49,228 nucleotides of DNA from Synergistaceae bacterium (GTDB lineage: Bacteria; Synergistota; Synergistia; Synergistales; Aminobacteriaceae): the NCBI GenBank assembly GCA_031272145.1, contig JAISUL010000027.1, positions 1 to 49,228 of the forward strand, given 5' to 3'. Made by a program: the position numbers and the translations under genes. Positions 327 through 3,713 of this stretch are shown one piece after another (the stretch's first letter is position 1; every line of letters starts with the position of its first letter). Below the pieces are notes generated by a model. It was given only the letters and a program-made list of their open reading frames with translations, searched no databases and was not told the DNA's origin.

Positions 327-473
327 GACCCACCGGCAACTTTTCCGACCCCGTTTCAAGATGATGAGAAGCAACGGGGATGGTTATACCAGGGCGGGGG
401 GAGAAAGTCAAGGGGGTGAGGAGGGAAAATTCTTCGATTCTGCCGGGGGCGTAGCGCGATCTTCTTGCCTCTT

Positions 474-617
474 TCACGCCGCCGAGATCGCCGGCACCGG
501 CACGGCCGTCAGGCGGTCGCCCAGCGGCAGGGGCTCCGCGCGGCAGGGGCTCCGCGAGAGCTTGACCTCGACCGCCGCGACGTCCCCGCGTGCATCCGAC
601 GAGGCTGGCCTCCTCAG
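474..617 (-). pseudogene. Remnant of a second DUF4143 AAA-ATPase gene (C-terminal end)
   Basis: The minus-strand translation ends in LPLGDRLTAVPVPAIS plus two Ala and a stop. It is preceded by RGDVAAVEVKLSR, matching the C-terminus of the intact ATPase at 1086-2324 almost residue for residue. About 33 residues between these blocks (TVSRRD to TGEET in the intact copy) are replaced by a short junction. Upstream, similarity stops near the GEEVDLV segment, and the whole Walker/AAA part is missing. The DNA then runs straight into the second leader hairpin (626-658). This is a decayed copy produced by duplication of the cassette. It cannot encode a functional ATPase. Confidence 0.85.
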
Positions 618-625
618 AAAGAAAG

Positions 626-658
626 CGGAGGCGCCGATTTTACTCGGACGCCCCCTCC
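626..658 (-). terminator. Second leader hairpin, copy A
   Basis: On the minus strand a G-rich arm (GGAGG, GGCG, CCGA) pairs with TCGG, CGCC and TCC around a short A-rich loop, followed by CTTTCTTTCT. A homologous hairpin lies at 2410-2444 upstream of the intact ATPase. It sits after the small ORF at 679-786 and before the ATPase remnant, so it could end transcription of the small ORF. Confidence 0.5.
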
Positions 659-678
659 CGTCGCCTAACCCGCCGACA

Positions 679-786
679 CTACCGCGGGCGGAACGTGACC
701 GTCAGGCTCAGACTCGCCCTCAGCCATCGCCCCAGTCGCACGACAAGCGCGCAACTCAGGCTGTTCAGCCGCCTAAAAATATACAT
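679..786 (-). CDS. Small ORF, 35 aa, hydrophobic/cationic peptide
   Basis: ATG at 786-784, TAG at 681-679. An AAAGGAG ribosome-binding sequence lies about 10 nt upstream. The peptide begins MYIFRRLNSLSCALVVRLGR and continues as a Trp-, Leu- and Ser-rich stretch ending in Arg-Pro-Arg. It has a short hydrophobic core with five to seven Arg, as in membrane-active small peptides. It has its own upstream promoter with a palindrome (906-948) and a terminator-like hairpin downstream (626-658), so it is a self-contained transcription unit. The second cassette copy retains only the last codons (around 2465-2475), so the ORF is absent there. I do not recognise the family. A type I toxin-like peptide is possible but unproven. 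Confidence 0.35.
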   Translation of the reverse strand: MYIFRRLNSLSCALVVRLGRWLRASLSLTVTFRPR

Positions 787-905
787 ACTGGGTCATCTCC
801 TTTCAGAGAGACGTCGCCCCGCTCCTTGGACGACCGGCTCAGGCATGAGCCTTTGCCGCGCATATGACAAGCGCGGAAAGCGGTCCCTAGCACGTATCTC
901 GGCTG

Positions 906-948
906 ATACGGTGACCGTATTATACCCGAATTCTGAGGTGGGAAGCAA
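906..948 (-). promoter_or_regulatory. Promoter overlapping a 15-bp palindrome
   Basis: Minus strand: TTGCTT (948-943), 18-nt spacer, TATAAT (924-919). The perfect palindrome ATACGGT-G-ACCGTAT spans 906-920 and overlaps the last bases of the -10 and the likely start site. This is the classic position for a repressor operator. The nearest minus-strand ORF downstream is the 35-aa ORF starting at 786. Confidence 0.55.
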
Positions 949-1023
949 AAAAAGGCCTTTCCCCGTGTAACCCGACGCAGAGCAACGCCGGAACGGGGAA
1001 AGGAGATGACCCAGCTATGTATG
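947..1023 (-). ncRNA. Short leader RNA ending in an intrinsic terminator, copy A
   Basis: Predicted transcript from the promoter at 1030-1057, about 77 nt long. It folds into a 10-bp outer stem (CCTTTCCCCG at 965-956 pairs with 1003-994) and an inner stem CCGGCG/CGTCGG capped by an 8-nt loop, followed by GGCC and seven U. Copy B at 2479-2554 keeps both stems while the apical loop differs, which supports selection on structure. Orientation and position suggest a transcription attenuator or a stand-alone small RNA in front of the ATPase-remnant cassette. Confidence 0.55.
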
Positions 1024-1029
1024 TTGAAC

Positions 1030-1057
1030 AGTATACCACGAGTCCCCAAAAATTCAA
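1030..1057 (-). promoter_or_regulatory. Promoter of leader RNA copy A
   Basis: TTGAAT (1057-1052), 16-nt spacer, TATACT (1035-1030) on the minus strand. The spacer is nearly identical to that of copy B at 2561-2588. Confidence 0.6.
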
Positions 1058-1085
1058 GGGGCGTAGCGCGATCTTCCTGCCTCTT

Positions 1086-2324
1086 TCACGCCGCCGAGAG
1101 CGCCGAGATAGCCGGCACCGGTACGGCTGTCAGTCGGTCGCCCAGCGGCAGGGTCTCCTCCCCGGTGTAGACCAGCGCGCCGCCGGCGAACCTGTCGCCC
1201 AGGGCGTCACGCAGCGACGTCAGGCCTTTGATGTCCCGGCGCGAGACCGTCCGCGAGAGCTTCACCTCGACCGCCGCGACGTCCCCGCGGGCGTCCTCTA
1301 GGACTAGGTCGACCTCCTCGCCAGCCTGAGAGCGGTAGTGAGAAAGGCTTACTACTCGGTGCTGCGTCCACGTGGCCTGCTTCACGATCTCGCCGACCAC
1401 GTAGGTCTCGAAGAGCCGGCCCGCCTTGGCCGGGTCTCGTGCGGGCGCGTTTTCGCCAGCGACGGCTAGGTGCGAGGCTAGGCCGGAGTCCGCAAAGTGT
1501 AGCTTCGGCGACTTGACCAGCCGTTTGCTGGAGTTGAACGACCATGCGGGGAGGAAGTAGATTATGAACAGCGCCTCGAACAGCGAGACGTACCGCGCAA
1601 GCGTGGTGTTTGGGATGCCGGCGGAGCGCGAGACTTCGGCGGCGTTCAGGAGCGTGGCGGTGCGGGTTGCCAGGAGCGACAGCAGGCGTATGGCCGCGCT
1701 TCTGTCCTGGATGTTGGAGATGTCGCGCACGTCCCTCTCGACCAGGGACGTGACGTACGAGTCGAACCATGCGTCCCGCCTTGCCTGAACCCTGGGCACC
1801 ACGTCGGGATAGCCGCCAGCCAGGACGGTGGCGAACGGGAACTCGCCGTCGGGATTGCAAAAAGGCGGTATAGCGCAAGCGCGGCCATCGAAGAGGCGCG
1901 CGATGAAGTCGTCCCTAACCCCGGCCATCTCTCCGGCGGAGAAGGGGTAGAGGGTCAATAACTCCATGCGTCCGGCCAGAGAGTCGGCCACCTTGGGGAC
2001 GGCGAACACGTTGGCGGAGCCCGTGAGCAGGTACCGCCCCGGCGTCCGCTCGCGGTCGATGTCCTCCTTGAGGGCGAGGAGCAGGCCGGGCGCCCGCTGA
2101 ACCTCGTCGATGACCGCCGGCTTGCCGAGCCCGTGCAGGAAGCCGGACGGGTCGTTCGTTGCCGCCGTCAAAGCCGCCGCCGAGTCCAGCGTCACGTAGC
2201 CGTTGAACCCCGCCAAGTTCTTGACGAGCGTCGTCTTGCCCGTCTGCCTGGCGCCGCGCAGGAAGACCGCCGGCGTGTCGGCCAGGGCCTCCGCGATGCG
2301 CGGCGCGATGTTTCGAGTAATCAT
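1086..2324 (-). CDS. AAA-family ATPase with DUF4143 domain
   Basis: The product has 412 residues. Residues 24-32 (GARQTGKTT) are the Walker A loop, VIDEVQ around 71-76 is Walker B, and LLTGSANV near residue 100 is the sensor region. The C-terminal DUF4143 part contains EEVDLVLE and VAAVEVK, resembling a nuclease-fold core. Proteins of this type (COG1373) are common in multicopy in anaerobes and their biological role is poorly known; DNA- or mobile-element-related roles have been suggested. It starts at ATG 2324 after a leader of about 230 nt with two hairpins. The gene is part of a duplicated cassette whose other copy is the remnant at 474-617. It is flanked by directly repeated leader segments, which suggests acquisition or amplification by recombination. 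Confidence 0.93.
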   Translation of the reverse strand: MITRNIAPRIAEALADTPAVFLRGARQTGKTTLVKNLAGFNGYVTLDSAAALTAATNDPSGFLHGLGKPAVIDEVQRAPGLLLALKEDIDRERTPGRYLLTGSANVFAVPKVADSLAGRMELLTLYPFSAGEMAGVRDDFIARLFDGRACAIPPFCNPDGEFPFATVLAGGYPDVVPRVQARRDAWFDSYVTSLVERDVRDISNIQDRSAAIRLLSLLATRTATLLNAAEVSRSAGIPNTTLARYVSLFEALFIIYFLPAWSFNSSKRLVKSPKLHFADSGLASHLAVAGENAPARDPAKAGRLFETYVVGEIVKQATWTQHRVVSLSHYRSQAGEEVDLVLEDARGDVAAVEVKLSRTVSRRDIKGLTSLRDALGDRFAGGALVYTGEETLPLGDRLTAVPVPAISALSAA

Positions 2325-2409
2325 GTGTAAATCTTACCACGGGATGGTTGAAATTCCACCACGCCGTGGCGCAGAACGCAAAACGCCCGCCCCGTGCGGA
2401 TAAAGAAAG

Positions 2410-2444
2410 CGGGAGCGCCGATTTCACTCGAACGCCCCCTCCCG
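2410..2444 (-). terminator. Second leader hairpin, copy B
   Basis: On the minus strand CGGGAG (2444-2439) pairs with CTCCCG (2415-2410), with further inner pairing, followed by CTTTCTTTA. It lies in the leader of the intact ATPase, downstream of the leader RNA terminator at 2479-2535. It is homologous to 626-658. Confidence 0.5.
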
Positions 2445-2478
2445 TCGCCTAACCCGCCGACACTACCGCGGGCGGGGT

Positions 2479-2554
2479 AAAAAAAGCCCTTTCCCCGTTT
2501 AACCCGACGATAAGCGACGCCGGAGCGGGGAAAGGAGAGTACCTAGTGATGTAT
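2479..2554 (-). ncRNA. Short leader RNA ending in an intrinsic terminator, copy B
   Basis: About 76 nt from the promoter at 2561-2588. Outer stem of 10 bp (2535-2526 with 2497-2488) and inner stem CCGGCG/CGTCGG, then seven U at 2485-2479. Loop bases differ from copy A while both stems are unchanged. The ATPase start codon is about 155 nt further downstream, so read-through of this terminator would be needed to express the ATPase from this promoter. The 319 bp between the two genes (2325-2643) are filled by this leader; I see no other gene in it. Confidence 0.55.
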
Positions 2555-2560
2555 GTTGCG

Positions 2561-2588
2561 AGTATACCACGAGTCCCAAAAAAGTCAA
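2561..2588 (-). promoter_or_regulatory. Promoter of leader RNA copy B / ATPase
   Basis: TTGACT (2588-2583), 16-nt spacer, TATACT (2566-2561) on the minus strand. It lies between the stop codon of the prepilin-like gene and the leader RNA. Confidence 0.65.
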
Positions 2589-2643: not shown

Positions 2644-3558
2644 TTACATGTTATCCACGCGCCATGACCCCATCGCCACCAGCAGGTTATGCCCGCCGAA
2701 CTCCTCGCGCCACGGCGCCGCCTCAGGCCACTCAGTAGGGCGCAGTGATTTTTGCTGCCCCTGCCCCTGCGGCGGGGCATTCGCTCCGGCGTCCGCTAGA
2801 ACCCATGCGTCCAGCACGCGCAGGTCAGGCCTCCACTCGAACCACAGGGCTAGGATTCCCTCGGCTCGGTCGATAGTATCGCCCCAGTCGGTGCGGAACC
2901 TGCTGGAACGGAAAAAGCCGTCCTTTGCGGCGTAACGGATGGCCTCGATGTAGCACATCTCGTCATAGGGCGCTATCAGCGCCGCGCTGGACAGGGTGAG
3001 CTTGCCTCCCGAATAGCCGTTCACGGACACGGGCTGCCCTGAGAGCGGGAACGCAACCCACGACTCGATGTTGCTTCTGTTGCCGAGCGCGATTCGATCG
3101 CTTATCAGAGCCATGTTTGCGCTCTGCCCTAGGAGCGTCACCGACGTGCTCGGCGCGGTGCTTGGCTTGGCCTTCAGGGCCGACGGGATGGTGTAGACCA
3201 GCGCTATTCCCTCGCCGCCGTACACCCCGTCGCGTCTTTCGGCCAGCGCAGTGCCGTCGCCCTTCAGAACCGTCACAGCCGACGGAAACGGAGCGGGCAG
3301 CCCTCCCATGTCCTTGAGGCCGGCGCCGGCGTGAAGCGCGCGGAGCTCGATCGCCGAGAGCACGGCCTGAGCGTTAGCCCACGCCGCCGAGTCCCCGAAG
3401 AAGCGCGCCGCCGCGGAGGAAACGCCGGCAACGGCGCGAAACAGCGCCCCAGCAAGCGTCAAGCATACAAACGAGGCGACCAAAACCTCAGTCAGCGTGA
3501 ACGAGGGAGTATGATTCGCGCCCGTCCCGCTGGCGCCCCTTAGCCTCGGCCTAAGCAT
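2644..3558 (-). CDS. Prepilin-like protein (PilW/pseudopilin type)
   Basis: The product has 304 residues. After an 18-residue basic leader comes SFTLTEVLVASFVCLTLAGA, a type IV pilin N-terminus: Phe at +1, Glu at +5 and a hydrophobic helix of about 20 residues that serves as membrane anchor and assembly domain. The residue at -1 is Ser rather than the usual Gly, which may slow prepilin peptidase processing. The remainder is a soluble domain without a family I can name; length and layout fit a minor pilin such as PilW. Its ATG overlaps the end of the 57-aa ORF at 3540-3713, and a G7 tract directly abuts the start codon. A role in type IV pilus or pseudopilus assembly is inferred. Confidence 0.75.
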   Translation of the reverse strand: MLRPRLRGASGTGANHTPSFTLTEVLVASFVCLTLAGALFRAVAGVSSAAARFFGDSAAWANAQAVLSAIELRALHAGAGLKDMGGLPAPFPSAVTVLKGDGTALAERRDGVYGGEGIALVYTIPSALKAKPSTAPSTSVTLLGQSANMALISDRIALGNRSNIESWVAFPLSGQPVSVNGYSGGKLTLSSAALIAPYDEMCYIEAIRYAAKDGFFRSSRFRTDWGDTIDRAEGILALWFEWRPDLRVLDAWVLADAGANAPPQGQGQQKSLRPTEWPEAAPWREEFGGHNLLVAMGSWRVDNM

Positions 3559-3713
3559 CCCCCCCTACCCCCCCCGTCCTTCCGGGCCAGATCGCTCGCG
3601 CCATCGCCGATCGCCAGCTGCATGACCATATCATAGGCCGCCTCCACGCTCTGGCAGCCCCGCAGACTGCGCGCCAGAACGATCAGAAACGCCTTGAACT
3701 GCACGTCAGACAT
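3540..3713 (-). CDS. Small conserved-looking ORF upstream of the prepilin gene, 57 aa
   Basis: ATG at 3713 follows a strong Shine-Dalgarno (GGGAGGTGA). Stop TAA at 3542-3540. The protein begins MSDVQFKAFLIVLARSLRGC and continues QSVEAAYDMVMQLAIGDGAS, an amphipathic helical stretch. It ends in a Gly/Arg tail encoded by C8 and C7 tracts (plus-strand view, 3568-3575 and 3559-3565). It overlaps the start of the prepilin-like gene by 19 nt in another frame, so translation is probably coupled. I do not recognise the family. A one-base change in the poly-G tracts could fuse it in frame to the prepilin gene. Confidence 0.6.
   Translation of the reverse strand: MSDVQFKAFLIVLARSLRGCQSVEAAYDMVMQLAIGDGASDLARKDGGGRGGCLGRG

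Follow-up and report, generated by a model that had tools for sequence, protein, structure and literature searches.

The window (the whole stretch of DNA analysed, 49,228 nucleotides from a Synergistaceae bacterium) carries two copies of a promoter followed by a hairpin and a U-run, at 947-1057 and 2479-2588 on the minus strand, as the initial annotation had described. This duplication is part of a longer tandem repeat whose unit comprises a small RNA, a small ORF and an AAA_14/DUF4143 ATPase (Table 1). Scraps of further repeat units are found at 433-597, 2402-2475 and 2575-2635; the first of these, a 3' fragment of the ATPase, indicates that the cassette was once repeated in tandem. In the unit at 1057-433 the ATPase is reduced to this scrap, and of the small ORF in the unit at 2588-1086 only the last codons and the terminator are left. 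Leaving the ATPase aside, the window contains one complete module (1057-618) and one module without a peptide gene (2588-2402). Outside any evident gene, at 247-289, we also observed a perfect 7-bp tandem repeat (GAGAACC, six copies).

Table 1. Features of the repeated region, in window coordinates
Feature	Position	Strand	Basis and remarks
ATPase second copy, 3' scrap	433..597	-	Repeat comparison
Peptide mRNA	618..912	-	Putative start ACCGU at 912, terminator about 660-618; alignment of ten mRNAs
35-aa peptide ORF MYIFRRLNSLSCALVVRLGRWLRASLSLTVTFRPR and stop	679..786	-	65% identical homologue on contig C70; dN/dS 0.32; family alignment
Hairpin H3, predicted to hide the Shine-Dalgarno sequence	795..812	-	Fold; covarying hairpin
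Leader hairpin H2, putative kissing partner of the RNA apical loop	813..834	-	Covarying stem; loop match weak in this copy
Leader element GATACGTGCTAGGG	885..898	-	Cis pairing with start region CCCAGTATGTAT; MFE fold, 16-mRNA permutation test
-10 box TATAAT of peptide mRNA	919..924	-	Sequence; alignment with C70 and eight other loci
Antisense RNA 1, about 75-80 nt, 5' end approximate	947..1024	-	Fold z -4.5; covariance-model match E 4e-17
Two-tier terminator hairpin with U7, RNA 1	947..1006	-	Apical loop UUGCUCUG, putative kissing loop
5' antisense tail, RNA 1	998..1023	-	Complements SD/AUG of peptide mRNA; inverse blastn match 778-804, duplex energies
Promoter, antisense RNA 1	1030..1057	-	TTGAAT-16-TATACT, TG before -10; consensus scan, kept in copy 2
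AAA_14/DUF4143 ATPase	1086..2324	-	Pfam; co-duplicated with the module here, not a conserved part of it
Second peptide gene remnant (last codons and terminator)	2402..2475	-	95% identical to 618-691
Antisense RNA 2, orphan, different tail	2479..2555	-	Fold, copy alignment, covariance model
Promoter, antisense RNA 2	2561..2588	-	TTGACT-16-TATACT; consensus scan

In each RNA copy, a TG-extended promoter precedes a 5' tail of about 25 nt that is largely unpaired; the two-tier hairpin and a run of seven U follow. A consensus scan of positions 560-2620 returned three promoter-like matches where 0.3 would be expected, and two of the three are the promoters of RNAs 1 and 2. The minus-strand RNA forms two stems ahead of U7, the outer one of about 10-11 bp and the inner one of 6-7 bp, with z-scores against dinucleotide shuffles of -4.5 for the copy at 947-1057 and -3.5 for that at 2479-2588. 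Folding is better on the minus than on the plus strand, since a conserved G.U pair of the inner stem turns into A.C on the latter. A plus-strand reading, with a Shine-Dalgarno (SD) sequence and an ATG on the other strand, was rejected: the corresponding ORFs differ from copy to copy and extend antisense into the ATPase, and full pairing of the inner stem is seen on the minus strand only. Both stems had been described as identical between copies; they are indeed conserved, but the outer stem differs slightly at its base and top, and the apical loops differ as reported (UUGCUCUG versus UCGCUUAU). No Rfam 15 family scored above its gathering threshold at the window locus or at a related locus on contig C70 of the same genome, and elsewhere in the window Rfam identified tRNAs only. 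The whole genome assembly contains exactly four such RNAs, two in the window and two on C70.

The initial annotation overlooked the target of the RNA, a 35-aa ORF at 786-679, and the antisense pairing to its start. A whole-genome blastn search with the RNA sequence matched the SD/ATG region of this ORF in inverse orientation. The ORF belongs to a complete transcription unit that follows RNA 1 in the same orientation and has a promoter of its own, a 126-nt leader rich in structure and a terminator; a candidate -35 box (TTGCTT), 18 nt upstream of the -10 box, overlaps the U-run of RNA 1. The SD sequence is AAAGGAGA and the ATG lies at 786. The tail of RNA 1 is complementary to the start region over 17 nt and, past a one-base bulge, over 7 nt more. 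For antisense RNA 2, no matching mRNA was found among the peptide mRNAs that we identified.

A second module on C70 shows the same layout without the ATPase: an RNA, a leader, a 34-aa peptide (65% identical to that of the window) and a terminator, followed by an orphan RNA. The two leaders are nearly the same, whereas the stretch from SD to start differs (CCCAGT versus CCTCACGC), a difference mirrored in the RNA tails. The C70 RNA forms a duplex of -48.7 kcal/mol with its own mRNA and of -20.7 kcal/mol with the window mRNA. The same genome also encodes a glycosyltransferase-like ORF (L025, 4606-5844, minus strand) with an Arg-Glu repeat run arising from a GAGAGA tract, a possible slippage site.

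We searched 188 Synergistota genomes for relatives, using a covariance model of four RNAs, a peptide profile and a covariance model of the mRNA; covariance-model E-values are rough owing to a shortened calibration, and several genomes are incomplete assemblies, in which absence is weak evidence. A covariance-model search for further copies and their neighbours had been proposed with the initial annotation; it does yield further copies, and none of the neighbours tested at these loci is an AAA_14/DUF4143 ATPase. About a dozen further modules were detected, all accepted loci lying within the Synergistaceae, the window's own family. They comprise two modules and a fragment in Synergistales bacterium MS502-76 (G004), and modules in G006, in Synergistaceae bacterium Th196P3bin106 (G010), in G089 and in G035, a genome that matches Fretibacterium sp. 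Tb.RUG.11. The G035 modules are distributed over contigs C93 (one), C18 (two in tandem) and C135 (one), and C262 carries one module with a cut-off ORF and one leader-only remnant. An RNA is present at a contig end in G012, and in G070 and G072 (L142, L143) related peptide genes stand in tandem pairs that have the cis leader element but no adjacent antisense RNA. Within the family, most weak matches of the RNA model cover no more than 30-45 nt and resemble ordinary terminators; L006 and most other peptide matches with E > 0.01 were rejected as homologous loci, and at the mRNA-model matches in G001 and G099 no module is present.

In the 16 loci with a peptide, its length ranges from 29 to 42 aa, within the size usual for type I toxins (mostly below 60 aa), and nearly all sequences are strongly basic. 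Their hydropathy (GRAVY -0.94 to 0.47; best 12-residue score 1.0-1.9) is moderate and below that of many membrane toxins, and the predicted structure is a single helix (pLDDT 71, low-to-moderate confidence). Neither Pfam, NCBIfam nor PHROGs gave a match for any peptide scanned, and none was found in plasmid, phage and IMG/VR collections. Five of six pairwise comparisons gave dN/dS ratios of 0.20-0.32 (the sixth pair is too similar to tell), values that are approximate since a hairpin inside the ORF also constrains codons. Substitution patterns thus indicate that the peptide ORFs are under purifying selection.

Covariation in the RNA hairpin is extensive. Among 15 RNAs and 16 base pairs, 97.8% of cells are paired and 15 of the 16 pairs show double changes, although the alignment was fitted to the model and the figure is therefore biased in the model's favour. 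The covariation score is 0.716 versus 0.341 for shuffled alignments, and slid controls are 47-65% paired; an alignment of four RNAs made without the model already contained five double-changed pairs. The initial annotation had suspected a selected RNA, with stems that should be preserved in any additional genomic copies. They are preserved, and the covariation of 15 of 16 base pairs across 15 homologues strongly supports this view, as the conserved promoter, terminator and covarying hairpin strongly support a stand-alone small RNA. The other function then envisaged, an attenuator or leader controlling the downstream ATPase, can hardly be correct: the copy at 2479-2588 does lie in front of the ATPase, upstream of its start at 2324 and on the same strand, but the equally conserved copy at 947-1057, which had been placed there too, lies 3' of the ATPase stop codon, a peptide-gene remnant with a terminator separates the 2479 U-run from the ATPase, no such ATPase was seen beside the other loci among the neighbours tested, and the 5' tail of the RNA covaries with the peptide start site.

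This last relationship was assessed in 12 RNA/mRNA pairs. Tail-to-start duplexes average -37.7 kcal/mol for cognate and -20.0 kcal/mol for non-cognate combinations, the cognate partner is the best in 12 of 12 rows, and the start codon is covered by every duplex. Complementarity between the apical loop and the leader follows the same trend, with the cognate partner best in 11 of 12 rows; the longest match falls in the loop of hairpin H2 in 9 of the 12 pairs. It is weakest in the window's own genome, where the loop-loop pair of the window is limited to four Watson-Crick pairs and a G.U. Permutation counts were 0 of 300,000 for either interaction, though relatedness among some loci (two in G004, several in G035) means that these counts overstate independence and are not strict probabilities. 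On this comparative evidence, both the tail-to-start and the loop-to-leader pairings are cognate-specific. We also considered that the tail-mRNA match might reflect a generic anti-SD/SD resemblance or be a by-product of duplication rather than a sign of regulation, since SD regions are similar to the complement of the 16S 3' end and one unrelated SD of the window yields -31 kcal/mol with the tail of RNA 1. Such an explanation is very improbable. Non-cognate pairs have the same SD and AUG but pair far less well, and these shared elements therefore cannot account for cognate specificity; in all 12 loci the match instead tracks the first codons and the variable spacer, and the independent loop-leader match covaries too. 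The non-cognate control led us to reject a chance SD resemblance.

The mRNA also appears to be folded upon its own start site. Across 16 mRNAs, the 5' element of the leader pairs in cis with the start site (mean -24.7 versus -19.9 kcal/mol; 0 of 200,000 permutations), and this element also resembles the RNA tail (331 of 200,000 permutations). Three mRNA hairpins covary: the putative kissing hairpin, the SD-hiding hairpin and one inside the ORF. A pairing of the mRNA 5' and 3' ends, a lock frequent among other toxin mRNAs, seemed conserved by eye but was not significant (p 0.32). Occlusion of the ribosome binding site in the primary mRNA, by both the SD hairpin and the cis anti-start element, is thus predicted from these folds.

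Several modules are found in a mobile context. In G004, contig C132 starts with a Rep_3 replication initiator and the module comes directly after; C132 and C106, both plasmid-like, carry primase-like genes and weak excisionase-like or terminase-like matches. The G006 module adjoins a gene for a 2449-aa large polyvalent protein, and several other copies lie near ordinary chromosomal genes. G004 also contains a CRISPR array of at least 36 repeats (GTTTCAACCCCCTATCGAGGATTCATAGTTGCTGAC). Spacer 35, the last one (L109, about 2453-2486, on G004:C1), shares 34 identical nt with the peptide genes that C106 and C132 of this assembly carry, and would be self-targeting if these contigs belong to the same cell. 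This identity ties the module to conflict over mobile DNA.

Antisense RNAs occur in arrays as well. On contig C135 of G035 (L108, about 3260-3660, minus strand), four tandem RNAs precede one peptide gene; each U-run runs into the -10 box of the next RNA, and only the last RNA matches the peptide. G006 has three RNAs in tandem array, and orphan RNAs are present in the window and on C70. The C70 orphan (L022, 1812-1898) and the first RNA of the C135 array have in common a tail of about 15 nt, GCATTTTGGG(G)TACC, and come from two genera. No matching peptide mRNA was found for this tail in the 188 genomes. The corresponding specificity, GGTACCC(C)AAAATGC, has four matches in these genomes: two are the RNAs themselves, and the other two, which have no module, apparently lie inside unrelated genes. 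We may speculate, with considerable reserve, that arrays with different tails constitute an RNA-based anti-addiction repertoire against toxins of incoming plasmids or phages. RNAs would then be retained after loss of their own peptide gene, or acquired from elsewhere, each with a two-part address formed by kissing loop and tail.

The layout of the genes, the covarying hairpin, the cognate pairing at two sites and the purifying selection on the ORF all follow from the computation. We consider it probable that the duplicated hairpin represents the antitoxin of a module resembling type I toxin-antitoxin systems. This RNA, about 75 nt long, would be made from its own promoter, 5' of and on the same strand as the gene for a basic, partly hydrophobic peptide of 35 residues. 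The peptide mRNA would be locked twice in cis, by the local hairpin over the SD and by the 5'-proximal element paired with the start region. Acting in trans, the RNA would first contact the leader hairpin loop with its apical loop and then zip over the start site, its 5' tail pairing with the SD, AUG and first codons and thereby blocking ribosome entry. We infer that both units are transcribed, that the RNA is short-lived and the mRNA stable, that the peptide is toxic and that the module contributes to maintenance of mobile DNA. Should the RNA disappear, for instance together with a plasmid, peptide mRNA left behind could be translated and arrest growth.

The same RNA logic could serve a small peptide that is not a toxin, such as a membrane regulator or a signal, with no growth inhibition. 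Some of the peptides are only weakly hydrophobic, the C-terminal tails vary, and G070 and G072 have peptide genes with no adjacent RNA, all of which would suit this alternative. Against the type I reading we also count the overall moderate hydrophobicity, the weak loop pairing in the window and the non-significant pairing of the mRNA ends. We nevertheless regard this alternative as rather unlikely: layered repression by cis locks and dedicated antisense RNAs is typical of addiction modules rather than of housekeeping peptides, and so are a location on plasmid-like contigs, targeting by CRISPR, a patchy distribution and the persistence of orphan RNAs once the peptide gene is gone.

As a toxin-antitoxin module, the locus has no precedent in the literature that we searched: no paper connects Synergistetes with type I systems, or Synergistota with toxin-antitoxin and small RNA. 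A 2025 paper counts earlier type I systems in Proteobacteria, Firmicutes and Tenericutes only and adds Cyanobacteria; it blames this narrow range on search bias and makes no mention of Synergistota (PMC12390103). Given that Synergistota are absent from the phyla counted and that Rfam, Pfam, NCBIfam and PHROGs gave no match, the best reading is that this looks like a new type I family with a putative toxin, combining par(pAD1)-like action with tandem genes that do not overlap and with antitoxin RNAs in arrays. A single hairpin has thus led to a whole Synergistota family with three-way covariation between RNA tail, mRNA start site and mRNA leader, and with a second covarying site for kissing. 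A few base changes in a reporter should allow direct tests of specificity, of partner switching and of how antitoxin arrays evolve.

Known systems resemble this module in different respects. The aapA/IsoA system of Helicobacter also has a small basic peptide, but IsoA is cis-encoded and overlapping. In aapA, hairpins upstream of and within the ORF hide the SD and keep the primary mRNA untranslatable (PMC6733600), and we observe covarying hairpins at both places. The 5'-3' lock of aapA has no significant counterpart here, and the comparison is one of published descriptions. The msoT1/msoA1 locus of Microcystis, likewise compared by description, is another type I-like locus outside the classical phyla, in a different phylum. 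In the E. coli pairs tisB/istR-1, zor/orz, shoB/ohsC and dinQ/agrB, as in ours with its putative toxin, adjacent, non-overlapping genes encode a toxin and a small RNA that complements the long leader of the toxin mRNA. However, their genes are divergent and the RNA attaches to an upstream part of the leader, clear of the initiation site (PMC4147584), whereas here the genes are in tandem, the predicted duplex covers the start codon itself and the loop would make a second contact.

The closest parallel is with par of plasmid pAD1, where RNA I encodes Fst (Fst/Ldr family) and RNA II is the antitoxin. It has a small peptide of about 33 aa; kissing occurs at the terminator-hairpin loop of the antitoxin RNA, after which pairing extends across the start codon and SD; an intramolecular hairpin covers the SD and the mRNA 5' end is sequestered (PMC7472228). 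The course of events inferred for the present module, from a short-lived RNA and a stable mRNA to release of the peptide once the RNA is gone, is the way in which par(pAD1) operates (PMC7472228). Interaction sites are poorly conserved among par paralogues, which restricts each RNA to its own mRNA (PMC7472228), and the pairing predicted here follows the same pattern. The par RNAs are transcribed from convergent promoters across shared repeats and end at a shared bidirectional terminator, whereas the present genes are in tandem on one strand, do not overlap and have separate terminators, and the putative kissing partner is a leader hairpin. Lacking any Pfam match, the peptide has no detectable relation to Fst. 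With gene order and peptide both different, we do not class the module as a par member; by its predicted mode of action, par(pAD1) would nevertheless be its best mechanistic analogue.
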